From Trichuris trichiura (taxonomy: Eukaryota; Nematoda; Enoplea; Trichinellida; Trichuridae), in NCBI GenBank assembly GCA_037903355.1, contig JBAJFE010000014.1, positions 2,046,001 through 2,110,000 on the forward strand: 64,000 nt of DNA, read 5' to 3'. Made by a program: the position numbers and the translations under genes. Position 1 is the first letter of the stretch; each line of letters starts with the position of its first letter. Below the pieces are notes generated by a model. That model saw only the letters and a list, made by a program, of their open reading frames with translations. It was not told the DNA's origin and did no database searches. Positions 5,901-63,612 of the stretch are shown here, one piece after another.

Positions 5901-8900
5901 TCCTTCTGGGCATTAAGCGTCTGCGTGCTTTCACTTTTATTGATTTTTACAAGTAAAATTCTTTTTACAAATTTCAATCAGTTTCATTCATTAGTCAGGG
6001 TTTTACTGATTCCTTTCCAGTACTAAAAGTTGTAAACTGGCCGAAGCAGATTTAGATGATTGAAGATGTGAAGTTAGTTTTTGTCCCAGAAAATTGAATT
6101 TCTTATAACATGGAAAGCTGCGTTTCAAACCTTGAGTTATCTCATAATTTGTTTAATGGACCCCAGAATAGAATATGCTTGATTCAAAGAGGGAAACGTG
6201 TTATTTCTCAAAGACTTTCTTCAAAAGATTTCAAGAGGTCGAGCAGTTAGCTAAAAGCTATTGAATTTATATTTAAGACATCTACGAAACTTAAGAACGG
6301 AATTTTGCGTGTAAAACTATGTAAGGTCGACACTGATAAGAAAGCCCAGTGATCACTGACATAATTGAAAACGTTTCTTCAGTTTATAGACTTCCTGCCT
6401 ATCTGCGCTCTTATAGTATTTACATGCTTAAAGCAAACTGAATAAATAACTAACGTTTACGGTATTCGTTTGCTCCATTATAAACGATTTACTTTTGCAT
6501 CGCGATTACTCGATCAAAAATGAAGATTGTTTCTGAACTTTAGAAAACCTCAAGTGCACGCAGATTTCTTATAATCGTAAACCAAATAACTCCCCCAAAC
6601 TTTTTTTTGTTTTACGCTGAGAATAAGCGCAGGTATCTAAATTATTTTTGTTTTTTTTAGAGATGCGTCTGGTTTAGTAGAAGACCTCAATAACGGAATG
6701 CTGTCAGCCTGTGCAGTCAATCAAACCTGTGTTTATGGGCTTCACAACTACTACCATGTAAATGAGCAGCCAAAATTATTAAAATAACACTTCTGAAGTT
6801 TCTTTTGGCTTTGCAGATTCTGGAACTAGAAGGCGCCTGGGCACCGTTAATCACAGCCGGCGTATTTTCGTCAACTCTAAGCTCCGCATTAGCGTCGACA
6901 GTTTCCGCTCCAAAAGTACTGCAGGTAACTATTAAGCGACTTTCCTCCGCCCTTGCTGATCGAAAGTCTGCTAAGCGTAAATTCTGCGTGTTACAGAAAA
7001 GTGCAAAGCGGTCAATCTTTTACGTTCCACTGTCCTTATTTTATTGATTCAATTTTCAGAAGAGCGTTGGAATAGCAAGCGATTGCAAACCCTTTGATGC
7101 GGTAATTTTATTTAGGTTAGAAAAGGTTTCAGAACGAGCGAGAGTTAAGCGCTTCTTTGCAACGGATGTATAGTTTCAGTTTTTCTTAAATGGCCTGGTT
7201 CGGGAAGTCCGTCAGTAGCTATCAAAAACAAAAAGTCTCCCAAGGGATCGTCAGGCTTATGTTGGCTGGAATGAAAATCGTATAGGTGGAGCCTCTGATC
7301 TGAAGAGCGGCCTATTCTGCGTGCGGTAATGAGACCATGCGTTCTTCTGTGCCGTTCTGCGTGAAAAACACGTGAATCATTCCTTTGCCTAGCTTGTTTG
7401 TGTAATTCGCGTTACATATCCTTTGGTCATCTAATAATTGCTTAATTCGGCTACTGGATCGATTGGTCATGTATCACAGTGGACGCATTCAACTAACCCT
7501 TGACCTGGAATGCGTAAATTGTCTTAACAGGTTTGAACAGTTTCATTGGCATTTTACGCGGATTTGGCCTGCCTGAAAGTAAAATGCTTTATTTGTAATC
7601 ATGAAAAAAGTACTCGAAGCTTTCGAGATATCTTGAGTCACCTGTTGCAAAAGGGTAAGCGAAGTGCAGGTAACCCTCGTTGTACGTAATAATGACAACC
7701 ATGATAAAGATTAATCATGATAGTAATTCATTCGCATATGCCAGAAAGATCAATGAAGTGCACCTTATAGCTTTCACTTTTCAGCGATGTAGCGTAGGAC
7801 ATTAATCACAGCTTTGTCATACCGCGAACGCTTCTTCAGTATCAGCCTAAGCAATTACAGTGCCTGCATCATTCATTTTGGTTAATCGCGTTAAACGTTG
7901 CTCCATCATCGTAAGAAGCACATAATTCCATACTTTTTAGTACAAAAGGCCATTATAATTGTTCTGTTTATCCTTATCTGCTTTATCATTAATATGTGAA
8001 TACACAGCCTTCTATTATTGCGAACACTAACTGCACCCCGCTTTTGAATCGCGCTTTCCCACAGGCACCCAGAGCAAGTAAAGACATAGGACATGACATA
8101 TGTTAGCTGCACACCGCTACCCATGATAAACGTTCCGAACCAAAAACTGCGGATACAACGGGAGATTTACGTGTTCATAACGGTTTCGGAAGGCATGTTC
8201 CCCGTTGTCATCGCTAAACACCGCGTGTCTTTTGTCGGATGCGGTATTCCCATACTGGTTTCCAGTCCCAGTTGTTCCTGACGTCGCACAAGCAATTGCA
8301 ACTGCAACTAAATTACAGAAGTGGTTTATTGGTGAATTTGTGAGCGAATTTCCAGAGAAAGTATTGAGCAACTTTTTTTCGTAACTTTCGCAGCTCCTCT
8401 TGTTCCGTCGTGAGCGATCTAAGAAAGTATGTATCTGTTCGGTAATGGGTTTAGGACAGCGGTAACAATAGGTATGATTACTTCGATGAAGTGCAGGACT
8501 GGCATTTATTAACAGCAGACAATTGGCAAGACTGCCATTCCCTTGAAAGTGCATTCGCGTTGGGTGCAATCATTAAAAAATATCAATTCTACACCATAGC
8601 AGTCTAACCACCTCCGCTGTTACTGGCTGCCAATTTTATGCCATTGCAGAATCGCCGAAGACGAAACAGAAGCAATTCCAAAACACACAAAAAATTTGTA
8701 AATACCGCGTTCCAATGAAAGACACCCGGTGCTCAGCAATGACAATGGGGAACATGTTTTCTGAAACTGCCGTTCAACGTACAGGCCGCTCACCGTATCT
8801 GCACTCTTTGATTCTGAACATTTGTTGTCGATTGCAATGACGCGAACAAGTGTTATTTCTTATGGCTTTAATTGCTCCTGGTTGCCTACGAGAAAACCTA

Positions 8901-21007: not shown

Positions 21008-24000
21008 TAGAAGGGTCTTGCGAGTAAAATATATTTGTTTCACTAGTGCAAGTTTGTTGAGCAGCGATAAAGCCATCTGTTTTTTTTTGTAGTGCATTGC
21101 ATGTTGGCATGCCCTTTTCCGTGCTGTTTAATCAACAAATGTAGTTTAGGTTTGTAGTTAGGCGAGAAAGGGAAATCTCTTTCGTGAAAAGTTGGCTTAG
21201 TAGCTATTCGCACCTACATGGCGGTTGCAATGAAAATGTAGTTTTTTGGGAGGTCTGCAAAGGTGTGTATGTAAGGATAGCGAAGTCAGGCTTTCGTTCT
21301 CTGCTTGTATGATTCGTTTCCGGTGAATGTCATTTTATGTACTCCGAAGGCAGTTATCCAAGTTCAACCAACTGCAAATGATAACCCCTGGATAACCATT
21401 CAGCTAATATAATAGAAATGTCTTGTTTTGGACTTAGAGAATTCTTGAGGCGTAAACTAATTTTAGGTTTAAGAGTTTTGTGCCCAAAGAATGATCACTG
21501 AGTAGAAAACTTAGTACATTTAAAAAATTGACCGATGGAGGAAGATGGTCCCCATAACCTGCAAATACTCTAGCAGTTTATAACCTGGTACGATTACAGA
21601 ACGGGCTCAAGCAGTCGTTCAAACGTTTATCGGATGTTGAGGCATTGTTACTACCAAAATTTATATATCTATTTTTCTATAATATTTCTGCAATAAGATC
21701 ATCCTTTTCTGTTCAAATGATCACAGCATAAGTTATCGAAATTCTACTACTTATGATCATGCCCGTGCAGCTTGGATTGACCTTAATTCCCCTATTTGAA
21801 CGCTGCTGTTAAACATCAAAGCTGAAGGGGAAATGAGGAAGTGAATACCGCGTTCTCCTTGAATCCTTCCCATTTAATAATATTTTCACATTGTTTTTGG
21901 TATTCTTGTTTAATTCCGATCTACGTCGTATCAATAATCCGCTGGAGGTAAGTATTCACTTTACAATCGTTCTAGTTTATCAGTACGTTTTTTAATGTTC
22001 AAGTTGGTCAATTGTTAGGAATACCCCCGCTTTTGAACAGTTGCTATTGAAAAATGTTCCGAAGCTTTCACCGTCCAACTTGTCCTGTCTTCAGCTGAAT
22101 ATTTATTTCGCCGAAGATGGGCCAAGCTGTGTTCCGAAAGCTTCGGGCCTTTTTTGTGAAAAGTGATCAAAAAACAGGTTTGCGGAACAATTCATCAACA
22201 TGAAAACGTATGCCCTGATTACTAAAAGCCCTGTGCTCAAATGATTCTTGTGTCATCCTTGCAACTCTTTACTGTTAATTCCCGCTGATTGTAAAAAGGA
22301 TGGGTGATCTTACCTTGGCATTGCAAAGTTGGGGCAATGGATCTCTCTTTAGCTTAATAATTATGTAAGCTTTTACTATTTTAAAAAAGCACTATTTTCT
22401 TTTGACAGTGAAAAATACCTGCAACTAAATGAACGAGTATCTGAACAAAGAATAGGCCGCTAGGTGGCTATATGGACGATAACATTGCGTTTGTAATTTG
22501 CAGCTATTCCTTGAAAGTAAGTGGTTGTCGCATGCAAGATAAAAATATACTGCAAGTGAGCGAGCAGGGTTTTGAATAGTGCACACTTTTGCTCTACGAA
22601 TAAACCAAAATTTCTGTGGAAACTTGCGCACTGTTCTCGCCTGTATTGGTAATCGTTCACCTATTCATTTAATCGACTTTCGCTCCCTTACAAAGGAGCT
22701 TCTACTGACAACATAACGAAACTGTAGCAAACACAATGACACCATATTAACTGCGTAATCGAGAGGGAATAGCACTCAGGTTGCATTGGAAGAATCTCTC
22801 TTTCAAGGACAAAAATAAATTCCCTTTTTTCGTCCAATTGTTGTAAGATAGGCAATACCGCGCAGCGATAACGTTAACGCACTGGGTCGCAGTGAAGCAT
22901 GCAGCTACTACTTTGCCTCTGCTCTGCTAATCGCCGATAGTTCGACATGAAAGAAACGGCGTTTAATAGTTTCACGTAGGCAGCCGATGGAAATATTTTA
23001 AACAAAAATCGCTCATCTTCCTAGTGTTGAAATGGTTATTTAGTTCAACTTGACGGCTTAAGTCAACCCATTAGATGTGGAGCAGTCCTCAACCTGATTT
23101 GAAAAAGTTTTAGGTTTAACGTTGGCTTCACGCTCCACCGTAGGGATAGTCGAAGCTGTCCATTTCACCGTTGTCGGCGGACGTCCGAAAGCAAAATCAG
23201 TGAAGGTACTAATTTAATCGTTTGCTCAGAAGTTGTGGAATTCAAAATAACGTCGAATTCGAAACTATTTTTTGAACTGGAACCGCGCTGAAAACTTAAA
23301 TGACTCTTTTGTAACGAGGTGCCGCAGTCAACGTTAGGTTAATCTGTGCTGAATAACTTTTATCTACAGTAAGCATTACTCCAACTCGAGGGCACACACT
23401 TCCAGCGATTCATCAATTCATCTCTAACTATCTGGTCTGCACATGTCGTACATGGTTAATGGGAAACGATAGGAAACAACAATGAATTAGGCATAAGCGT
23501 TCAGGCAAAGCGCACCTGCTAAGAGTACTTAGTTTCTAGTTGCGATGGGCAAAAATGTCAGAACAGTTGCATTGCTCAAAGTAAAAAATTACCCTACAAT
23601 GCTGGAAAAATTATTGAACTGCTATAAATTCATAAAAGAGTTTAAAATATGGGTACTCCTCAGCTTCAAGAGTTATCAGCTGCTTCTGCAAACATTAAAA
23701 TGACGTTACTCTCCGGAATTCTAAGCTCCCGTCTTAACAACGTTACATTGCTATTTTAACTTGTTTGAAATGTGAAATTGCGAGGAATCTCATACGTTCA
23801 TACGTCATGGTTGTTATTAATTTTACTATATATATTTGTTATAAACTTATGAAATGCTTTTTACCACTGTTCAGACTTCGCACTAACGATGAGCAACAGA
23901 CAAGTCCTTGCATGTTGTTCACGCATCTGGCTATAAGTTCGCTTTGCTCATTGAATGCAAGTTGACGTGATCACCTTACATGAAGGATGAACCGAAAGCA

Positions 24001-30212: not shown

Positions 30213-30324
30213 TTTTATTTTTATATTGGATTACCATTCCTTTTCCCATGCCAGTTTCTTGCTAATATCTTTGCGGTTTTCAGTCCTAACTTTAAAATAA
30301 CGTTTATGAAGTAAACGTTAAGTT

Positions 30325-30361
30325 GTGGAGCTTTCAGGTCATCTTGGACCCGTATCAGCGC
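30325..30361 (-). ncRNA. Decayed hammerhead ribozyme motif (minus strand)
   Basis: Reads CTGATA in place of CTGATGA, so the G of the catalytic GA is missing. The hairpin CGGGTC/GACCTG and GAAAGCTC remain. Helix I (GCG against CAC) no longer pairs fully. Predicted inactive. Confidence 0.55.
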
Positions 30362-30538
30362 AATGTGTGCCGCTCGTCAGGTCGGTCTTCATGGTTGCAA
30401 GCCACTCCATCCCACCAACTTTGGCGGAAACCTCCGCTGTCAGACCTATCTTGAGCCGTCGAGCCTTGGCCTCACCTAGTCAGTTAGATGGCGCAGAGAG
30501 CGCCCAACCGCAAGTTGCTGAGCTTTCGGGCGCACGTT

Positions 30539-30577
30539 GCGCTGATGACGGGTCCCGGAATGACTCGAGAGCTCCGC
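30539..30577 (+). ncRNA. Decayed hammerhead ribozyme motif (plus strand)
   Basis: CTGATGA and helix I (GCG/CGC) are intact. Helix II (GGGTC/GACTC) has one mismatch, and the invariant GAA after helix II reads GAG. Predicted inactive or weak. Confidence 0.6.
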
Positions 30578-30745
30578 GGCTTAACGTTTATTTCATAAAC
30601 GTTATTTTTAAGAGCATGTTGAGAACCGCAAAAGTTTTGCAAGAAATGTTATAAAAACACCCGCTAAAAAGAAAGAAGAAAAAAATAAGATTTTTCTGTG
30701 CCAGCAAATATTTTTATTCTTTATGAGTAATTTCGAAAGACAGGA

Positions 30746-36600: not shown

Positions 36601-39600
36601 CCCACCTGTAAACATGCTGCAACAATTTATTAGAGCATCATAGGAAATAATTCACAGAATTGAGATACCATGGAAGGTGGGTATAAGCAGGGTTGGGTTA
36701 ACAGTCTGGGCTAACAAATGAAAAGAAGTAAATGGCTGCATGCGAACTTATTCTTACTTGTATCTTTCCAGATCCTTCAGATGGCTTTCTCTGAGTTTCA
36801 TGAATAATTCTCTGCAGATGTTGATGCAAAGGCAAAAATTTACCTTAAAAAGACAAACATAAAACAACAGAGACATTCAAATATGCAAAAGCAGAATAAC
36901 TAACAATTCTACTCCATTTCAGATCGGCTAGTGAAAATAAAAGTCACCAATTGATCAAGTGTTTTACGCACTCGCTAGTTGCATTAGTCAGTTTTCAGGT
37001 AAAGGTTGAACCCTGCTTATGCCCACTACCTTTGCACGATTCAATCAGTCGTTTGTCTATCAGAAATTAAAAACTAACGAAAAGTATCACACTACTGAAC
37101 TGAGAATTTTTTTCAGCTCAACAAGCGTTTGCGGTTTCCTTCGTTCACGGTTGTACAAATGGATTATCCTAAAGCGCAATTGTCGATACGGCTTTTTCAC
37201 CAGCGTTACTGACACCTTGTCAGAGTGCTAGTAATCTTGACGGCCTGTTTGCATGAAGTTTCCTATCTCTCAACACTTATTTTTATGGGGCACATAAATT
37301 CGGTCAGCAACTTGGGACGTTTGCTTACGTTTTCAAACTAGTCCCACATTTCTTGAAGGAGATTGCAAATAGTAAAGATTTCAAGGTTTGATAAAGTTGT
37401 TTAATACTCACAATGATTATCACCATGATAGGGCCACGCAGAATCCAAAAGTTATCCAAGTTTTGATACTGAATCCAGCATCTAAAAACAGTGAATTAGG
37501 AAACGATTAATTGAAAACCTGCAGGCATACTCACAAGTAATTTTCGTTGTGCAGTTTGACCAATACCCATGGCAAAATAATGAGCAGCGGTGCGCCCCAT
37601 CCAAGAATGATGTACACGATCAGTGGAGTATCACGGAAGACAATATAAACGAAATTGTGCAGATAAAGTCCTTCCATCAGTTGCCAGAAGTAGCTGGCAA
37701 CAAGAGAGTAGTTCCATGTTGAAATGATTAGCTTACATCCCCAGTGCTAAAATTTGGCGTTTTAAGTGCGAATTCATAGAATGAATGAAAACATTCACTT
37801 TCATGAAGGAAGCACCCTATAGTCCGTCTGATGGGATAGGAGTACGTTAAGAGCTTCCGGGACCATGAAGTCTCGATTCCAACAAAGACTGATGAAAACT
37901 TTTATGAAAATAAAAAATACGCATTCGAGGAATATGCAGGATTTGCGTATTTCTTTCTCAACACTGTAAAATATATTAACATGGCAAATTGCGCACAAAC
38001 GAATGATTAGAACTGGCTTGCGCATTTACGCGCGCAGGTATAGAATTACCTTGTTACATGAAAGATCTCAACGCATAATTACTTCAAATAACAGCCTGCA
38101 TGTTACTATTAATGCAACTTAGGTTATTATTCCCTTGTGTTGTACTGCTTTTATTTTAGAAATAGAACAGTCTTTGAAACGTATCTGCTTCGTCATCTTC
38201 GCGAAGTACAGCAGCTTATATTGAAACTATAAATCCACCGACGATGGGACAGGTTGCACTTTGAACATTCCTTGCTTATACACATAATAGGAACAAGTCA
38301 ACAATATTCCGTGATGACACAGAACATGTAGAAAGCGTCTGGAGTAGCCTGCCTGCTGAGCATTATTTTAAACTTGAAAGCGAATAAATAAATATTCCAT
38401 TCGATTGTTCATCATTATTTTCCATTTCACGGCAGTAAGAAAAAGTACAATAGCCCAGTACAACGTCATTTACGAGGAAGATTGAAGTGAGGAAACATAT
38501 TCAACCTGGAAAGCCATTTTAGAACAACAAATAATCCTTTCGTCTTGAAGGCAGTTTATTGCCCAGTTAAAGATCAAAGACCGGAAGCTGTTAGGCTATA
38601 CAAAGCGCGCTGGGGCATTATGCTAAAATACTTTTTAAATTTAACTACTGCCTCAGAATTTGCTATAGGTGGTCAACCACAGTTCGATAAGACTTAAGAC
38701 TGAAAACAAGTATCTCTCACAGCTAACTATTTTGCATTACACTAAATCGCTGAAATAGATTTACAACTGCAATCTACGTTCAATAAATTGTTAACCCTAT
38801 TATGCTACAGGACAGCTGGGCTAATGATCTGTTCTTTGAACATTTATGCCCATTCTGTAAAATATTCTTGTAAGCCATTTTCTTAGTGTAGTGTGCTCAT
38901 TAGTATTAATATAAGTGAAGAAGAAAAAAAAGCGTCTGCTTTACTTCAACTTTTAAGAGACTACGAGAAGTCGCCGCTAGAAACTGGGGAATACTGATAT
39001 GGCTTCTTATTAGCGCAGAAGGTTTCGTCATTTCTTTATTGTAGAAAAAACTACCAGTTTTGTTGAGCCCTCTTACGCGTATGACTTCACCTTTTCGCCA
39101 CGGTCATTCCTCTGTACTTTCCAACTTTTGTTATCACATAAAAGTTGAACTTGACGGGACAATGGGACAAAGCCAAATAAAACGTTTCTATATCGCAAGA
39201 ACAAAATGACTCAATGAAGAATGACGCTTCTCCTGTAATAAAAAATCTTGAAACATTTATTATTGTTATAATTCTGCTTATTTTTTCTTTTTTCTTTTTT
39301 CCCTCTTCTAACGGGTGTGTCATTCAACATAAAAATTTTTTTGCGGTTTTTCAACCCGTTCGTTAATGAAAACGTTTATTCCAAACGTTTATCCTGCGGA
39401 GCTTTCGGGCCACGCCGGGGCCCGTCATCAGCGCTAAGTGCGCCGCCGTCGGGTCGGTCATTATGTTAGCAGGCCGCTCCGTCCGACCGACCGTGGCGGG
39501 AACCACTCAGCGCACTTAGCGCTGATGACGGGCCCCGGCGTGGCCCGAAAGCTCCGCAGGATAAACGTTTGGAATAAACGTTTTTCATTAACGAACGGGT

Positions 39601-42600
39601 TGAAAAACCGCAAAAAAATTTTTATGTTGAATGACACACCCGTTAGAAGAGAAAAAAAGAAAAAAGAAGAATCAATTTTAATGTGTGTGCGGGCACCAAC
39701 AACAAAGAGATCAACGAGTGGCGGGAAAAAGAAGGTGAACATCCGGAAAGAAGGAAGTTTAAAGCCCGTGTGTTTAAACGGGCGGTTATGTCGTTTGTGT
39801 AATCGTTGTTTCTCATTGTTAGTGCTGCCGCCGTCGTGGAAGGTCGGTTGGGTGCTCGCCGCAAAGTCTGACTGACTAGGTGGGACCAAAGCCTGACGGG
39901 TCAAGGATCGACCTGACGGCTGAGGTTCCCGCCACGGTCGGTCGGACGGAGCGGCCTGCTAACATAATGACCGACCCGACGGCGGCGCACTTAGCGCTGA
40001 TGACGGGCCCCGGCGTGGCCCGAAAGCTCCGCAGGATAAACGTTTGGAATAAACGTTTTCATTAACGAACGGGTTGAAAAACCGCAAAAAAATTTTTATG
40101 TTGAATGACACACCCGTTAGAAGAGGAAAAAAAGAAAAAAGAAGAATCAATTTTAATGTGTGTGCGGGCACCAACAACAAAGAGATCAACGAGTGGCGGG
40201 AAAAAGAAGGTGAACATCCGGAAAGAAGGAAGTTTAAAGCCCGTGTGTTTAAACGGGCGGTTATGTCGTTTGTGTAATCGTTGTTTCTCATTGTTAGTGC
40301 TGCCGCCGTCGTGGAAGGTCGGTTGGGTGCTCGCCGCAAAGTCTGACTGACTAGGTGGGACCAAAGCCTGACGGGTCAAGGATCGACCTGACGGCTGAGG
40401 TTCCCGCCACGGTCGGTCGGACGGAGCGGCCTGCTAACATAATGACCGACCCGACGGCGGCGCACTTAGCGCTGATGACGGGCCCCGGCGTGGCCCGAAA
40501 GCTCCGCAGGATAAACGTTTGGAATAAACGTTTTCATTAACGAACGGGTTGAAAAACCGCGAAAAAATTTTTATGTTGATAATTCTGCTTAATACTATTA
40601 TTACTTATGTTTTCTTGCTTTTAAGGAAAGCATGTCTTTATGATTACTGTTGAGTATTAGAGTAAGCTTGAGGTTACCTAGCTTTTGTTGTTACCTTGAC
40701 GATGACACCTATGACTTTCTGACCCAAAACTGCGGTTATGCTGAGCGAAAACTATTACGCAGCCAGACCACAAGCTGATGGCAAAGGCCAACAAATGCGA
40801 AGATAGGAAGGAGGTCTGCGCGCGCACGTGCAATACTAAACGGTTGTTTATGAATAGACTGAACAAAAACATCACGTTTAAAGGACACAATAGTTAGGTA
40901 GTTTGTTAACTCTGCTTTAGATATTACTAATGCCAGTCAGCAGCATAGAATCACTAGTGCTTAAAACAGGAGTATACCATACATAATTATGAGAAAAACC
41001 CCGTTTTCACCCTTTCGCTTAAATCCTACCTTTTTACAACATTGAGATGCGGTTAATAAACTTGACTTGTGGTGCAGAAAATGCACGTTTATCCATCGTG
41101 AATAGAAAATTAAAACATTACGAATGATATTACCGTTGCACCATCTGCAAACTGTTCACGTCCATTTTCGTCGAGTAGCAGTTCGCCATCGAACGATGTT
41201 GTCTTTCCGTTTCGAAACAAGCTGTATTGAAGCACACACATGAAGGATCGCATTATGAATGCAAAAAATAAATGCAAATGGACTACGTTTCTCGCGCAGT
41301 GCAGACGCCTGAAAGAGAGCAAGCACAAATAACAGTACGAAGCTTTAGAAGTACGCAAGCAGATGAAATGGTTTATCTTTTATTTAGAAACATAAAAAGA
41401 ACTGGAAAATCTCTGGCATGGCCTTTGCAGGAGCTCTGCCCAGTGACTGCACTGTATCTTCGCAAATTTTGTCAGTGAAGTAAACTCGTGGTTTGAAATA
41501 CCACACGCCAATGCAAAAACTATCAGGTACAGGCGAAAATATATATATATATATATGTATAAAGTATAGCACTCTTTATTACGTGTACCCGGAATTATTT
41601 AGAATGCATAAGCGAGGGTTATTCTAAAAGCAATATTAAAGGAAAAGCGATGCCGTCTGGCAGGCATACATTGAGCTTAGAACAAGGATTTCATTTTTGG
41701 AGTAGCTCAGTTCTTACAGAGTCACATCAAATGCTTGAACTACTCGTTTACGCTGAATTCAGGAAAGGTACAGTCCCAAAGAATCTGCTATACAAAAAAA
41801 CTGTTCCTTTGTAGAGCAGTTAACGCCAAGGAGAAAGCTACTAATATGCGCCCATTAGAAAAAGTTTTGCATTTAAAATGAGAAGACTGCGACAGAAATT
41901 ATTTTACATAAAGCGTAAAACAAAAAAGGTTCACTTCGACTGAAAAGATTATGTTCATGCTTCACTCCGCTCTGCGAAGCTTAACAGCTTTAACAATAAG
42001 CAGTAAGGCGAAAAGCGGACTTTCTTTAAACATTTTTCAGCCTTTTGAAAATCATTATTTAATGCTTATAGAATTTTAGAATCGTTGCATTATTGATTGA
42101 TACTATGACAAAAACCCGTCCGGCGAAAAATAATTTTTAATTAAATTGACGGAATCACGGCGTTCAGGCAAAGAAAGAGATCGGCTATTAGAATGCTTTC
42201 ACCTATGAAAGCATTCCGTTCCTTTTCAAAGCACAAGAGTGAGTATCGAGTAATCAACAGACTCATACTTTTAAATCTATTTTCCATACAATAAACTCAC
42301 ATTCTCACTTTCCAAAAAATTTCTATGTTTGATGCAAACTACACATGAAACTTGAAACTACTCTGCGCCTGTTTTATTTATTTTTTCCATGTCGTTTCTG
42401 CATTTAAACAATTTTTTAATCAATTTCTCTGAGGAATGTTTTGTCTATGCTAAGTATCTGTTTCCAACATCGCTCGGTCATTTCTTTAGTCAATGCTGAG
42501 CAGTTGAAACTAAATGGGCAAAGAGAGACCAAAGAAGAACTAGCACAGGTTTCAGTCTTTAAAAAAAGTGAAACCAACAGTAGACTTGGCAAAATTCCTC

Positions 42601-53845: not shown

Positions 53846-56800
53846 ATGGAAGAAGATTGGCGTACTCAACGTCAGAGAGAAAAAATTATCCAGCACTTGT
53901 GAGTATTCTGTTCTCATTGCTGCGTATTTGTCATAGCAGTTGCTTCGCTGTCCTTTACCGTGACTGATCATACGTCGCCAATTTTGACAACCGTCTAAGT
54001 TTACGTTTGCAGTAATTAGTTTTGAGTGTCGCGCATCTTTCATGAAGTCGATTTATCTACAGTGACATGGTCCAATTTATGCTTCGTTTCGACTTATATC
54101 TTTTACAGTAAACAGGGTTTATAGTACTGGGTTGCTGTTTATCCCATGCGACATAAAGGGGTTCCTTTTCGGATCCGTGAAGAGTTTCGATTGAAGAAAA
54201 ATCGAGGACGCAGTTACAACCAAACCTTCGGTCCTCATTGACGGTATAGACCATTCAGAACAAGCTTTGCAGCAACAGCTGTGTGTATTATGCAAGTGTA
54301 TTTGTTGTTTACTGCGATAACCACAGGTCCACCTCTTTGTCAGACGTACTTGACTGTAGGTGAAGTCGATTAGCCAGTTTTTCAGAAGAATGAAAGACAT
54401 GCTTGCTTTGCTATCTCCTGTGGTGCTGTTGCCAAAGCTATCAGTAGCGTTGGTATTATTTTCTAAGCGTAACTTTTGAAAAGTTATAGGTAATAGTGTT
54501 ACCAATTTATGCTTTTGTTATATGTTCGTACAGAAATATTTCTTTGCTATAGAATTAAAATATTTAAAAGTGCACATAGTGTGTACATTACCGTAGGCAC
54601 AGTTGGTGAAACAAGGTTAATGCATCAATATTTTCGCGCAAGCTGCGAATGTGTGTTTTGGAAACCGCACAATAGGCTGCGGCTTAAAAATTGCCTACCT
54701 TTGCTTTTTAGCAGGTTTTTAAACTTCGTGAGTTCAGCTTTATGTCATTATTCAAGAAGAATTATGTTTCCGCATTTGTTTAAGTTTTCAGACGCATAGA
54801 CATTTATCAATCGTTGCCAGCATAGCCAATAATTAAACTGTCAATACTTGAAATAAATGTTTTTTATTTACATTCATTTTTACGTTAGAAGGAGCATAGT
54901 GAATCCAAAATGGGGCAAGAAAGCTGTAATCCGTAAAGTAGCAACTATTGCACTAGTATTTTTTGGAACAGTAAAGTCAAGACAATTTAATGTTCATATA
55001 TCTGATGCAGGTACAGATATACCCTTATCAAGAATTTGTAAAAACGGGATGTCTCAGAATTTGTCACCTTTAAATACCTCAGGTATAATCTCGCAGATGA
55101 AAAATCCTACACATAGTTTTACGATGGTTCAAAACACTGTCAATTTTTCGGCAAAAGTTGTTTATGAATCAGATGACTTTGTAGAAAAAATTTTGAAAAG
55201 CCGTGCAGGAGAACACTTCATGCCTAAAAGGTCTTGGTTGTAGAAGATTATAAAATTTCTTATGGCCGTGGTTTTGTGCGTATCCCTGTTAAGTATATGT
55301 GAAAAAAATTAAATTTCGAATTTTAACCTTGGACGCGATCTTGTACAGGTCGCACTGCGTGATTGTAAATATTTTAAAATCAGTGGAACCTCAAATCCGT
55401 AACAGTTCCTCAGCATCCTGGCTAAGGGGTTGCCTGCCTGTTTCTAAATCCTTTCATAAAAAGAAAGTTTGAACAGGCAGTAGAAAGGGAAATGGGCGTA
55501 TAAAACAGTAATTTATTTAAATCGTCTAGCAATTTTGTCTGTCCATCTGCTGAGCAATTTGCATGAATGCTAATTGCTATTTTGAACGGTGGGCCATTTC
55601 GGTACTTTTATATTTGCATGCCAGTACACAGGAAGCCTTGTTTCTCTAGAACGAAACATAGGCGGCATACTTTGAACTGCCTGTGTCTACTGAAGCGCTG
55701 CATTGTGTGCCATAGACACCTCCGTTCATACGGTCTGCAGCGCCCAGGTCGATCACCAATTATGTTTACACAAATGCTGATGACAGCGAAAGTTTTCCAC
55801 GAAAGCTTTGTCATAATTCTCTATCAATAAACAGCTTTGTCATTTCCTAATTGATTTTTGTGCAATTCCTGAAGGCTGTGAAATGAGTCACATTTTTAAC
55901 TTATGCCTACATTGATAAATCCGAACTATTCAACGCGTCTGTCACTTTGCCGTTTTACTTTCAGCTGGAGTTGCATAAAATAACGAGTTCTATCACAAAA
56001 GAGAACCGCACTGGAAAGATAGTAAAATTTGCGATTGTACAACGTTTGCTCTGTTGTGTATAGGTTAAAATGCGCGAATAAATGCTGACTACCACATCTT
56101 ACACTTCGAGCAAATATCTGCAGTGAGAATTCAGAAGCTGCTCATTTGATGAGCAGCCATAGATTTTTTTTACGGAGAAAACATTTGTTTTCGTTTGAGT
56201 AGTCGGCCTCTATCATGCGAATGACGGCTTCATGTGTTAATGGAAAGCTTAAGTTTCACTGACATATGATTTCTGAACTACAGCGTTTTCCGTGGGTTGA
56301 GAATTTTCCAAAATACATCGTTGTGCTAGCACGCATTAATCCTGCTGCTTGGATGATCTGATTTCTGATTGTATGAGTGCTCGCTTATCTGAAGTGAGCG
56401 CAGGTTGCATTTGTGCATCGACAATCTCCCACGTTTTCTCACCTTCAGTTGTTTGCGATTGAACATTGCTGCTGTCTACAATTTTCTTTTTCACCCCTTG
56501 TTTTAGCTTGTAGTTTCTGTTAATTTTAGTACTTTCAAAACTTAATTTTTTCTTTCGTTCTCTTTGCTTAAGATTCAGTGCTTATTTTGTTCGGTCTATT
56601 AAAATACATGTTATAACGATAGGACTGTTGTTCTTGCTCCATTGCGCACTTCGTGGAGACAAAAGATCACCTTTCCCTATTCAGCTGATTAACGTGTCAT
56701 CGACCGCCTAGATGAATGTCTAATAGTCAACAGAGATAAGCATCGGAATCTGCCTTTGCATGCGTATCGGTGTTGTCTCTTTTCTCGGCGGTTACGACGC

Positions 56801-59800: not shown

Positions 59801-62800
59801 GTTGTACCAAACAGTTTTGCCTTTCCGGTAGGCAGTTTAAGCCAGTCAAGGGACACAGCCCCATATTTTGTTACCACAGAAAACTTGAGCTGCTCCCAGA
59901 TGCTATTAATGCTAGGCACATATTGTTAAAGATTGGTGAGTTCGTAACAGGTCCATATGTTTCCATTTTTCTTCAAAGTAACAAAAATTTCCTGCTTTCA
60001 ACAAGTCTTTACTACGTAGAGCTTTCAGAACTATAGTAATGTAAAGCTCTGGTAGAGCGTTGTTTTCTTCGTGCTGACGTGTGCTCGAAATAACCGGGAA
60101 AAGCGATTTCGTTACAAGGAACCCAATTGTTCTTCCATTGCTTCAGCAGTGAATATATCTATTCTCTCATTTTTCTTTTGTTTTTTGTTTCGCTAGTTGT
60201 TTCGCCGGTATTAAATTGCATGGCCATTTTAAGAAACAATCATTTCCTTCGTATACTGTGTGGTCGATGCATCTTTAGGGGAAATTGTTAAATTTTGGGT
60301 ATTAGTTTGCTGTTATAATAAATTGAAGCAGTATGCGCGTAGGAAAGAGGCGAAGACATAGTTAACAACGATATTTAAATGTTAGTAGTAAAGAGTTAAC
60401 TCATTCATCGCCTGCATTCGGCTTTATCGCAAAGCGGTTCTACTGCGAGAATATGACAAGACCACTTTAGGAGGAATCAAAATATATTTTTAGAAAATGT
60501 TTATGCACAATTTCAGCAACCATATTCCGCTGGTCGACCAGCGCAACCGGTGCAAATGGTGCAAACAATGATGCAGGGTGCTGCAACCGTTCGCTTTGTT
60601 GAACAACCTCCAACTCCGTACAACCGTCCGCCGTCGACGCCAATGCCTGCTACACCGGCTCCTCAGCAAGTTGCCATCCAGCCGACAAGCATTTCCTCAG
60701 TGCCGGTTGCATCTCCCAGCTTTACCCCAATGAGTCAGTATCCAACACCGTCACCGTCCAGCGGGCCACCTACGATGGGACCTTCGCCTTTGTATGCCAT
60801 GGAAACTTCACCTGCCTTTGCACCGGCACCAACCCCTGGCGCTCCTGTTAGCAGTAAAGGGCCCAGTCCTTCCGGAGTGGATACTTCAGGCACAAACGAA
60901 CAACCCGGATATAGAGAGAAAGTCATAGAATTGCTTGTTTACCTTGACACGTTGAAACGAATCATAGACCAACAACAACGCGAAGGAACCGCGAGTAATC
61001 GTTTCTCTTGATGTCGTTTTTTCTCTCAATCATTGTTGTACATTTTCAGACGCTGCTCAAGTTCAAAAGTTTCAGCGAATGGTGGACATACTCGAAGGAC
61101 GTCAGTGAGTTCATAATTTCCTTTGGTTCATGTAAACTAGTAGCAGCTGAACGTTTACATTATTATTATTATTAGGAAGACTAGCATGGACGTACTGCTG
61201 AAATGTGAGGAGACGCTGAAACGTTTGTGCCACAAAACAGAGGACGCCAAGGCAATTTTCGCACGTCATTGCTCTGTCGCAAATTTTTTTTTGTTTTTAG
61301 GAGCGTAACCGAAACATATGTCAGCCTTTGATTGAAGCTTTAAGTTTCGCGCTGAAGCAGCGAGGTGGCAAAGGTTTAAAGCTGTCCTCCTGCTTTGGTC
61401 ATCTCACGTTGCCAACGATGGCCGAGCAGAAATTATGGTCCACTGTTCGCTTGTCGGTTCTCTTTAAATTTCCAACTTACTGTTTTATAGTTCTTCCGAA
61501 TGGCTCGCAATGGTAAAGGAAAAAGCCAGCGAATTTTTGGCAGTGGAAGATAACGCTGGTCAAATACCCATCAGCATTAGGCGGGAAGTCGCTCTTTTGG
61601 ATCCGAAATTTCAAGTCCAGTTGGAAACAGATGAATTGCCATTGAAGTCGTCATGGAAGAACTTGCACGTCGTCTGCAGTTTGCGTAACGATTTGAAATT
61701 ATTCCCTTAGGGCACTATTTCAGTTTGTTAGGCATATTCTTGGCTTTCTCGACTTAATGCACCATTCAGTAATTATTTTCTTTTATCCAAAACTTCGACC
61801 GAGCAGGCCTGTCAAAATTTAGAATTCAGTGCACTCCACATGTAAAAAGAGATGTACCGGCTTAAAAACGCGGTAGTACTTCTTCTATTCCGAATGTTCA
61901 GGAGCAGAAGTTTTCTGGATATGCACGGGTTTCAAAAAGTTTCTGCAAATGCATACTTGACATAATCGCGGGAATACAATTCATATAAGTAAAAGGCAGT
62001 GCGAGTCATTTTACTTTAGGCAACTTTATCCGCTCCTCGTGCAAGCCTCCATCTTATTAAACGTGATAGAATTATGCCCAGTTTTTTTGAAGCAAGTTTT
62101 TAGCATTGGTGTTCAGCAGTACAAGTAATTCATAATGGACAGCAACCAGTGTGCACAGCTATCGCATATTTGAAATCATGGGTAGTCTGAGGAATCTATT
62201 AATAGTAACGAGAATAATATGGAGCTAGGACCTACTTCGACGCGTCTTACACCGACGATGAGTCGAAGTAGACTTGACATCTGTTATTGTTTTCGTTACT
62301 AGATGAAACTAGTTCACGGTGTCTCACATGTGGAAGCCTAAATCCCAATTACAAAAAACGCCGTGTTCACATACCGTTCACATCAAAGCTTTCGTTCTAG
62401 TCCCTAACTTTACTCGGAATGAACTTGTAAGGCGGCAGAGAATTTATAGAATTTCCTTTTTGTAACTTTTGCTTTCTGTATTCGGTTAACCAGCGTATAT
62501 TATACCTGGGCGCTAACCCTTCTCTTGCATTTGGTATCGCTTCATGAACGAAGAGGGCATTGTTTCTTATTTTTTACATAAAATATCCTGTAAGTGCTTA
62601 AATATACATGTAAGTTGCGTCTACGTTTCTTCATTACTAAAGCCAGAAATGACCTCTCAACAATATATGGAAAATAGAGAGCTGCAAAAACTTTATTACG
62701 GTATAATTCCCGTTTAATGCGTGTTGACTCCGGAGCTTTCGGGTCAACCGAGACCCGTCTTCAGCGGTTGTGAATTATGGATATAAATTGTCCGCGTGAC

Positions 62801-63612
62801 TTGAGTCTTCTGTCGACAATTGACAGAAGACTCAAGTCACGCGGACAATTTATATCCATAATTCACAACCGCTGAAGACGGGTCTTGGTTGACCCGAAAG
62901 CTCCGGAGTCAACACGCATTAAACGGGAATTATTCCGTAATAAAGTTTTTGCATTATGAAAACATACGGTCCCGTACGAAGAAACCACATTTTCAATAGA
63001 GAGCTGCTAATTTTTCACATGTTAACCGGGTCCGTTATTACTATGATTATAAAAACTGAGTAAGTTAAGCCCGCATAGCAGTTATCGCTACTCTTAGTTC
63101 CTCTGGGATAGGCTGTAATTGCTTCTCAGCATTTAACAAATACCCATCTTGCTGAACGAATGAGAAGGCCAATTAATGTAAGAATAATTAACTGGTTATT
63201 GGGAATGACTACGATGAATATCCTTTTCCTCTCACTATTTCTGTGTCCACAAATACGCATCTTTCAGATGATCCGACACTTCCTAGTGTTCCGCCGTTGT
63301 ACTTGCGAATTCCGCTGAATTATCCCCAAGCACTGCCGAAGTACGACATGGAGAAGACTAGCTATGGTAACAAATGCCGAAAACTCTCTTTCGTGAAATC
63401 TTTTTTTTTCAGGAGGATCGGCGTTATTATTATCCGTGAAAAAATCCTTACTTGCTCTTTCATACGATACTGCCTCATTCAAGACAATTAGCTTCTTGCT
63501 GAACCATTGGGTACGCTGTGCAGTTTTCATATCAACGCTGTATTCACGCGTGATGATACGCGTTATAGGTGCTGGCCGTGCGCAAAGCGTCCAGTTTAAT
63601 GGAATCGAATGA
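53846..63612 (+). CDS. MED15: Mediator complex subunit 15, complete, 12 exons
   Basis: Tail-module subunit of the Mediator coactivator, nuclear, bridging activators to RNA polymerase II. 710 aa (human 788). Exons: 53846-53898, 56868-56961, 57015-57079, 57117-57396, 57454-57855, 60517-60994, 61050-61104, 61176-61251, 61301-61437, 61491-61684, 63268-63366, 63413-63612; 2133 bp in frame. KIX domain 1-72: WRTQRQREKIIQHLDNVIR, VENAVFMKASNKEEYMHYVS. Gln-rich middle with 14 Gln at 124-137, then a Pro/Thr/Ser-rich region. Conserved C-terminal part: YREKVIELLVYLDTLKRIID, KFQRMVDILEGR, NICQPLIEALSFAL, REVALLDPKFQV, DPTLPSVPPLYLRIPLNYPQ, ISFLLNHWVRC. Intron 8 has a GC donor and intron 3 is only 37 bp (or 43 bp with a GC donor). 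The exon 9 donor (GTCCAC) is chosen for phase. Confidence 0.93.
53899..56867 (+). other. MED15 intron 1 (2969 bp)
   Basis: Contains a 128-codon plus-strand frame (54857-55243) and a 128-codon minus-strand frame (54119-54505), neither with a recognisable domain. No nested gene is claimed. Confidence 0.75.
57274..57315 (+). repeat. CAG/CAA repeat encoding 14 Gln in MED15
   Basis: Mixed CAG and CAA codons (residues 124-137), so an impure trinucleotide run. Gln-rich tracts are usual in MED15. Confidence 0.95.
57856..60516 (+). other. MED15 intron 5 (2661 bp)
   Basis: No coding or repeat structure recognised. Confidence 0.8.
62730..62767 (-). ncRNA. Hammerhead ribozyme motif, variant family, minus strand
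   Basis: Minus strand reads CCG, CTGAAGA, C, helix II GGGTC/GACCC, GAAAGCTC, CGG. N7 is A and helix I is CCG/CGG, where the 39-kb family has U and GCG/CGC. Confidence 0.68.
62869..62906 (+). ncRNA. Hammerhead ribozyme motif, variant family, plus strand
   Basis: CTGAAGA at 62872-62878, helix II GGGTC/GACCC, GAAAGCTC ending at 62903 (predicted cleavage after it), helix I CCG/CGG. This is the sense orientation of MED15 transcription. Confidence 0.7.

Follow-up and report, generated by a model that had tools for sequence, protein, structure and literature searches.

We analysed a 64,000-nt window of the Trichuris trichiura genome (contig JBAJFE010000014.1, positions 2,046,001 to 2,110,000; positions below are those of the window) that carries, at 39281-40578, a tandem array of hammerhead-type ribozyme motifs. 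We propose, with a probability of about 0.8, that the array is a single insertion of a non-autonomous element, made by the protein of a Penelope-like element (PLE; reverse transcriptase (RT) plus GIY-YIG endonuclease) acting in trans, with reverse transcription from both ends of the target.

An earlier sequence-only reading of the window had described three plus-strand motifs 475 nt apart, an inverted fourth motif, a tandem array and a 13-bp flanking direct repeat, and the letters bear out each of these. Read directly, GAAAGCTC ends at 39554, 40029 and 40504 on the plus strand (intervals 475/475 nt), and the inverted motif lies at 39391-39439 on the minus strand. Tandem Repeats Finder gave a period of 475 with 2.3 copies at 99%, and ATAATTCTGCTTA exactly borders the 1298-bp insert on both sides. 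The differences between the two tandem units, A and B, are limited to two 1-nt indels, as compared with 22 differences over 479 columns between the array unit and that of locus L012, the best other full-length match. Each tandem motif has the form CTGATGA-C-GGGCC-N7-GGCCC-GAAAGCTC with a helix I of 3 bp (GCG/CGC), and cleavage is predicted between GAAAGCUC and CGC. The duplication, the two inverted arms, the lengths of their tails (from the predicted cleavage site to the outer end) and the junction, at which the arms share a 2-nt overlap, are legible as follows.

39268..39280, no strand: target site duplication, left copy, ATAATTCTGCTTA (13 bp), from the letters and flank comparison
39281..39511, minus strand: left complementary DNA (cDNA) arm, 231 nt, with a long tail of 118 nt (39281-39398), the hammerhead motif and an end at unit 365
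39391..39439, minus strand: minimal hammerhead motif, inverted copy (49.3 bits, E 4.6e-11, model R1 built from other families)
39510..40578, plus strand: right cDNA arm, 1069 nt, with its start at unit 431, two full 475-nt units and a short tail of 74 nt
39514..39562, plus strand: minimal hammerhead motif 1, predicted cleavage after 39554 (model R1)
39555..40029, plus strand: unit A, 475 nt
39989..40037, plus strand: minimal hammerhead motif 2, predicted cleavage after 40029 (model R1)
40030..40504, plus strand: unit B, 475 nt
40291..40466, plus strand: long GC-rich hairpin, about unit 262-437, with a second copy in unit A
40464..40512, plus strand: minimal hammerhead motif 3, predicted cleavage after 40504 (model R1)
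40543..40559, plus strand: tail hairpin AACGG...CCG, also present in PLE tails
40579..40591, no strand: target site duplication, right copy, ATAATTCTGCTTA (13 bp), from the letters and flank comparison

What the sequence-only reading had overlooked is that the inverted copy forms one of a pair of cDNA arms, the usual arrangement in this family. Among 39 fetched loci of the family, 26 have a minus-strand left arm followed by a plus-strand right arm. Arms could be aligned from the outer end inward in 34 of the 39, and in 18 of the 24 aligned two-armed loci the distance between them is -5 to +7 nt. Arm lengths differ widely across these loci, and only the window array has two full tandem units. 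For the first 100 genome matches listed for the motif pattern described below, neighbours at most 300 nt apart were all divergent (minus-then-plus, 9/9), and of the 21 at most 1100 nt apart, 15 were minus-then-plus and 1 was plus-then-minus. Flanking repeats of at least 10 bp were found at 32/39 family loci, a count that includes one microsatellite and two locus pairs that are duplicates; among 228 mismatched pairs of family flanks the maximum was 10 bp, a length reached in three. Single-armed copies with target duplications also exist. Over 102 nt, an arm was in general no closer to its partner in the insertion than to arms from elsewhere (closer in 5/18, with 1 tie). Over 260 nt the closest relative of an arm was its sister in 7/8 cases, which argues that both arms come from the same source sequence. 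Within the pairs L028/L030 and L036/L037, the latter oppositely oriented, the duplication is identical; each pair therefore represents duplicated regions or uncollapsed haplotypes. The element at L034 is present with its flank as an inverted duplication on contig C26.

To obtain tail lengths independently of the tails themselves, we used target duplications of 10 bp or more to set the ends of insertions. Every one of the 33 two-armed insertions that could be resolved had a short tail and a long one, differing by at least 30 nt. These comprise 20 of the array family (the first 16 plus L013, L020, L029 and L034a, added later, in which the cleavage position was taken from alignment to the unit, one arm of L020 and of L029 having no intact motif), 7 PLE loci and 6 others (L071, L091, L092, L096 and two further pairs in the window). 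Short tails measured 60-84 nt in this family, 47-61 nt in the PLE loci and most relatives, and 77 nt in L092; the corresponding long tails were 109-131, 87-98 and 116 nt. The window array has 118/74. Under equal and independent odds, the chance of opposite tails in 33/33 is 2^-33, and when only duplications of at least 12 bp were kept the result was 26/26. The window also holds a second two-armed insertion at 62725-62911, with PLE-type ribozymes, the 13-bp duplication AATAGAGAGCTGC and tails of 47 and 91 nt, and an older two-armed copy at 30320-30582, with the 11-bp duplication TTATAAAAACA and tails of 115 and 74 nt.

The motif itself recurs beyond chance. The pattern CTGATGACN{10,24}GAAAGC had 1357 matches in the 72.7-Mb genome, as compared with 9 for the reversed control pattern, so that the motif is not a chance occurrence. 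In the first 100 matches listed, helix II was fully paired (5/5) in 66 and paired at 4/5 positions in 24. Over 42 distinct arm pairs, helix II pairing averaged 3.86, against 3.26 after shuffling (maximum 3.57 in 2000 shuffles). To analyse covariation we used 22 of 119 motif instances, with roughly one from each family and no match to the 475-nt unit among them, although two (L079 and L082) are possibly its distant kin. The set had been pre-filtered for at least 4/5 pairs in helix II, whereas helix I was unfiltered. In this set 96% of cells were paired, both sides had changed in 29 cells as compared with 7.0 in shuffled sets (0/500), and pairing with a shifted partner fell to 14-56%. Helix I, free of selection, covaried at 3/3 pairs. 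A covariance model (R1) built from these instances of other families recovered 4/4 array copies, with a score of 49.3 bits (E 4.6e-11). Since the searches demanded the core letters CTGANGA and GAAA, the presence of that core is not in itself evidence. Judged by covariation, the array motif belongs to a true RNA family, which has a hammerhead core with an additional C following CUGANGA and a helix III that lacks a loop.

This result modifies the claim of a type I hammerhead. A motif of hammerhead type stands, on genome counts and covariation; the canonical type I does not. The search with the Rfam type I model that the sequence-only reading had proposed gave no match at the array: Rfam detected no hammerhead in the whole window at the gathering cut-off, and none in 39200-40700 even at E<=10. 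Across the genome, Hammerhead_1 (RF00163) gave three weak matches at E<=10, none of them above the 34-bit cut-off, among the 73 of 12,095 candidates that were scored; the best of these, L009 (C21:2570085-2570133), reached 26.7 bits and lies outside the array. These scores below the cut-off, together with a stem III (GAAAGCTC) that has no loop, rule against a canonical type I hammerhead. Of the motif as it had been described, the GC hairpin core was right; the extra C before helix II had been overlooked, and helix III is the loopless palindrome AGCT. The extra C lies between CTGATGA and helix II in 117/119 instances, where L071-L090 came from a search that required it and L012-L070 from one that did not. 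The title of a 2001 paper by De la Pena and Flores, cited in PMC6155905, refers to a viroid hammerhead whose core has an extra nucleotide; this nucleotide reportedly lies after A9.

Helix III is AGCT in most of the 119 instances. With a G in the second place excluded, the pattern CTGANGACN{14,18}CGAAAHNT gave 590 matches as compared with 19 in the control. Of the 100 listed, 71 end in ACGT, nearly all of one family with GGAAC...GTTCC, and 29 have no palindrome (13 AACT, 6 ACCT, 4 ATGT and 6 others). Hammerheads without stem III are thought to act as dimers; by their letters, AGCT and ACGT would both satisfy the requirement of a dimeric helix III, and the switch between them may have been a single event. 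L093-L095 belong to the ACGT family (GGAAC/GTTCC stem, CTGACGA); in L094 and L095 about 125 nt of tail are common to both arms and the left arm continues, the fetched stretch stopping before the outer ends. Elsewhere in the window, single weaker matches to the ribozyme motif lie at 8374-8422 (minus strand, 29.1 bits) and 55769-55816 (plus strand, 27.2 bits).

The link to PLEs that had been suggested from the letters is supported. A GIY-YIG profile had 86 matches in the genome at E<=10, and of the 20 of these PLE endonuclease loci that were fetched, 18 have the same ribozyme type within 9 kb; within that distance of L053 and L059 there is no ribozyme of this type. For scale, the pattern CTGATGAC averages one match per 54 kb genome-wide. 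Ribozymes at PLE loci are mostly CTGAAGAC-GGGTC...GACCC-GAAAGCTCCGG. RVT_1 is followed by GIY-YIG in both open frames scanned (n=2), and for one PLE protein the best named relatives, among the best 120 of 3620 matches, come from Trichuris muris and T. suis. The element and the PLEs have a module in common, in which the ribozyme is followed within 75 nt by a hairpin AACGG-N5-13-CCG and after that by the element end. This hairpin is present in 11/28 tail-cluster representatives (13 by any member) and in 92/134 instances, as compared with 0.015 representatives expected from shuffles, for a pattern picked after the tails had been inspected; in a general search for tail stems most clusters were not above shuffles. 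Taken as a non-autonomous PLE, the element carries a minimal, stem-III-less type I hammerhead in a repeated end, ends at two RT start regions past the hammerhead, and has an inverted partial copy and a target duplication, with an RT plus GIY-YIG partner in the genome. What the 20 PLE loci lack is a partner sharing element sequence beyond the ribozyme and the tail motif.

How might such an insertion arise? A staggered cut, its 13-nt stagger visible as the duplication, would leave 3' ends on both sides. Inside the element RNA, downstream of the hammerhead motif, each 3' end would prime RT at one of two start regions, +74 for one side and +118 for the other. Synthesis of each cDNA would then proceed upstream across the motif, in the longer cDNA also across two further units, and the two products would be joined with a 2-nt overlap. 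The action of a PLE protein in trans, priming on both strands and the use of two template RNAs are the parts that we infer. PAc, the PLE protein of the green anole (Poseidon of Anolis), cuts and extends both target strands in vitro, and begins its cDNA at two internal sites of the RNA, both past the hammerhead, whose separation corresponds to the genomic tail (PMC11167929, in the portions available). Our data fit a PAc reaction carried to completion from both sides.

Several observations weigh against this proposal. A single arm is present in 13/39 family loci. Mismatched flanks reach at least 10 bp in 23/364 trials, and for this reason the seven insertions with duplications of 10-11 bp are individually weak. 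Six of the 26 two-armed family loci could not be resolved and were left out of the tail count: L019 and L043 (no clean duplication), L031, L039 and L046 (one arm unmeasurable) and L035 (duplication in a microsatellite, tails 74/122). The same applies to L077, L081 and L093-L095 (fetched too short or without a duplication) and to the pair at 22.1 kb of the window (22054-22151), a decayed, divergent motif pair without a 10-bp duplication. Also left out were the second L066 pair, L090, the 13 single-armed loci and L034b, which lies in the inverted duplication of L034a and its flank and has tails of 78/54. No 10-bp repeat was found at 12/22 motif pairs in the test of PLEs and relatives. Finally, the 20 PLE loci contain no PLE with the 475-nt unit, apart from matches shorter than 35 nt; near PLEs the unit was seen only as copies adjoining a PLE in L062 and L068.

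The inner ends of the arms give information on the templates. Of 57 traced arms, 56 extend past a cleavage site, 53 of them by more than 20 nt. Because arms read through it in this way, the usual template is uncleaved or religated at the site. Ten of the 57 continue for more than 20 nt beyond a second cleavage site, and the right arm of the window passes three. Inner ends cluster most tightly at unit 427-435 (11/57 as compared with 1.1 expected), a position that may mark the foot of a -110 kcal/mol hairpin or perhaps the RNA 5' end; the predicted fold of 40290-40470 has an energy of -110.3 kcal/mol (z -10), and its foot matches this cluster. Inner ends within 3 nt of a cleavage site number 3/57 (0.7 expected), and those from 20 nt upstream to 3 nt beyond it 8/57 (2.8 expected, P about 0.007). 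This hints that a minority of templates were perhaps cut at the predicted site.

These data bear on whether the hammerhead motif acts as a ribozyme at all. It could be catalytically dead in the small elements and retained as a structure bound by the PLE protein, a view that the extra C, the loopless helix III, the 3-bp helix I and the predominance of uncleaved or religated templates would all suit; moreover, PAc hammerhead mutants insert normally in vitro, according to the accessible part of PMC11167929. We nevertheless regard loss of catalysis as rather unlikely, since the helices covary, arm ends are in excess near the cleavage site (the 8/57 above) and, by the same partial account, the PAc ribozyme cleaves once protein is added.

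The array could instead be an animal retrozyme. Its transcripts would cleave to 475-nt monomers that could ligate to circles, as the sequence-only reading had supposed, and rolling RT on these circles would yield exact tandem units. Known retrozymes of metazoans occur as tandem repeats and have circular RNAs of about 170-400 nt (PMC7229834, from the sections available). The near-identical 475-nt units, the arms that pass a second cleavage site (10/57) and the inner ends at or just upstream of the site (8/57) would all be accounted for. However, retrozymes are marked by a canonical type I hammerhead, which has no match at the array and does not reach the cut-off in any of the 73 genome candidates that were scored, and by a GC content stated as below 45% in those sections, whereas that of the 475-nt unit is 0.507. 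A linear multimeric transcript would yield identical units as well, the tightest cluster of inner ends lies at unit 427-435 rather than at the cleavage site, and two full tandem units occur in 1/39 loci only. A retrozyme origin is thus unlikely, and for the tandem units of the window a 475-nt rolling circle is possible, not required.

As an elaboration of two-sided priming by a PLE protein, the loopless palindromic helix III might dimerise two RNAs, one per cut strand, within a protein-RNA dimer in which one RNA would always be entered at the near start and the other at the far start. If so, the role of the ribozyme would be to pair templates, either in place of cleavage or ahead of it. Hints in this direction are the two palindromes AGCU and ACGU (a compensatory double change, possibly one event), the sister relation of arms (7/8) and the asymmetry of tails (33/33). 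The 29/100 listed non-AGCU motifs without a palindrome, such as AACU, argue against it, as do nearest-neighbour energies: the double hammerhead comes to -25.9 kcal/mol, whereas two monomers have -16.8 apiece and an alternative dimer has -45.4. We therefore mention template pairing tentatively, as something that is probably not the case.

Inverted arms could also arise by fold-back self-priming, in which one cDNA folds at its inner end and copies itself, as put forward for Adineta Penelope elements (PMC3846280, seen in excerpt). The near-palindromic centres of the small copies L071, L091 and L092 are in keeping with this route, and 5/16 elements are outright compatible with it. In the other 11/16, however, the long-tailed arm reaches less far inward, so that each arm has sequence that the other lacks. 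Self-copying is strictly excluded by three of these (L014, L033 and L044), in which the short-tailed arm does not contain all of the extra tail; in the remaining 8 a full inner unit of the short-tailed arm could in principle supply it. Nor does a self-copy predict opposite tail classes each time. Fold-back is accordingly improbable, and we did not meet the asymmetry rule or this case against self-copying in the sections available of the open-licence PLE literature. A foldback or miniature inverted-repeat (MITE)-type DNA transposon with terminal inverted repeats would explain the inverted ends and the fairly constant duplication length, yet is very improbable, given ends that differ by at least 30 nt in 33/33, widely varying arm lengths, single-armed copies with duplications, and PLE loci of the genome that have the same end type.

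The genomic setting of the array had been given as an intron of a G protein-coupled receptor (GPCR) gene. Because PF00001 gave no match in the 64-kb window at E<=0.001, the receptor was sought exon by exon, and PF00002 was found. By these profile matches the array does appear to sit between two GPCR exons.

37534..37746, minus strand: further GPCR exon, PF00002 model 76-143 (profile match)
41113..41379, minus strand: secretin-family GPCR exon, PF00002 model 22-65 (profile match)

Since both exons are on the minus strand, the three tandem motifs are antisense to the GPCR gene.

The route of PLE insertion, the inverted ends and the retention of poor hammerheads are standing questions. In a genome that carries well over 1000 matches to the ribozyme motif, the ends of resolved insertions record the reaction itself: two cDNAs per insertion, each from a different start region. 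The mechanism of PLE insertion can thus be scored by counting in any genome and tested with a PLE protein that has already been purified, and our results speak against fold-back copying as a general source of inverted repeats.

The ribozyme type and its link to PLEs were already known from work of 2014-2017, as far as the available excerpts show, and the array element is a new member. Minimal type I hammerheads were described in the pseudo-long terminal repeats (pLTRs) of PLEs (Cervera & de la Pena 2014; Lunse 2017; via parts of PMC7761336 and PMC6155905). Like those PLEs, the element has a stem-III-less motif, for which dimeric action has been proposed, as well as inverted pLTRs, target duplications and a tail, optional in PLEs. 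Unlike them, the array insert has no PLE open reading frame and consists of a tandem 475-nt unit with a GC hairpin; the extra C after CUGANGA may be a further difference. With animal non-LTR retrozymes (PMC7229834, in part) it shares non-coding tandem units with a hammerhead and an exact unit length, whereas retrozymes have canonical hammerheads, a lower GC content and demonstrated circles. In the Penelope elements of Adineta vaga, according to passages of PMC3846280, an inverted pLTR completes the insert, a 31-bp tail is optional at one inverted pLTR, and pLTR sequences suffice for mobilisation in trans; inversion was ascribed there to self-priming, whereas here a short and a long tail occur in 33/33 resolved insertions and simple self-priming is at odds with 11/16. 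For PAc in vitro, the available portions of the report mention no difference in start site between the strands, whereas in every insertion resolved here one end is unlike the other.

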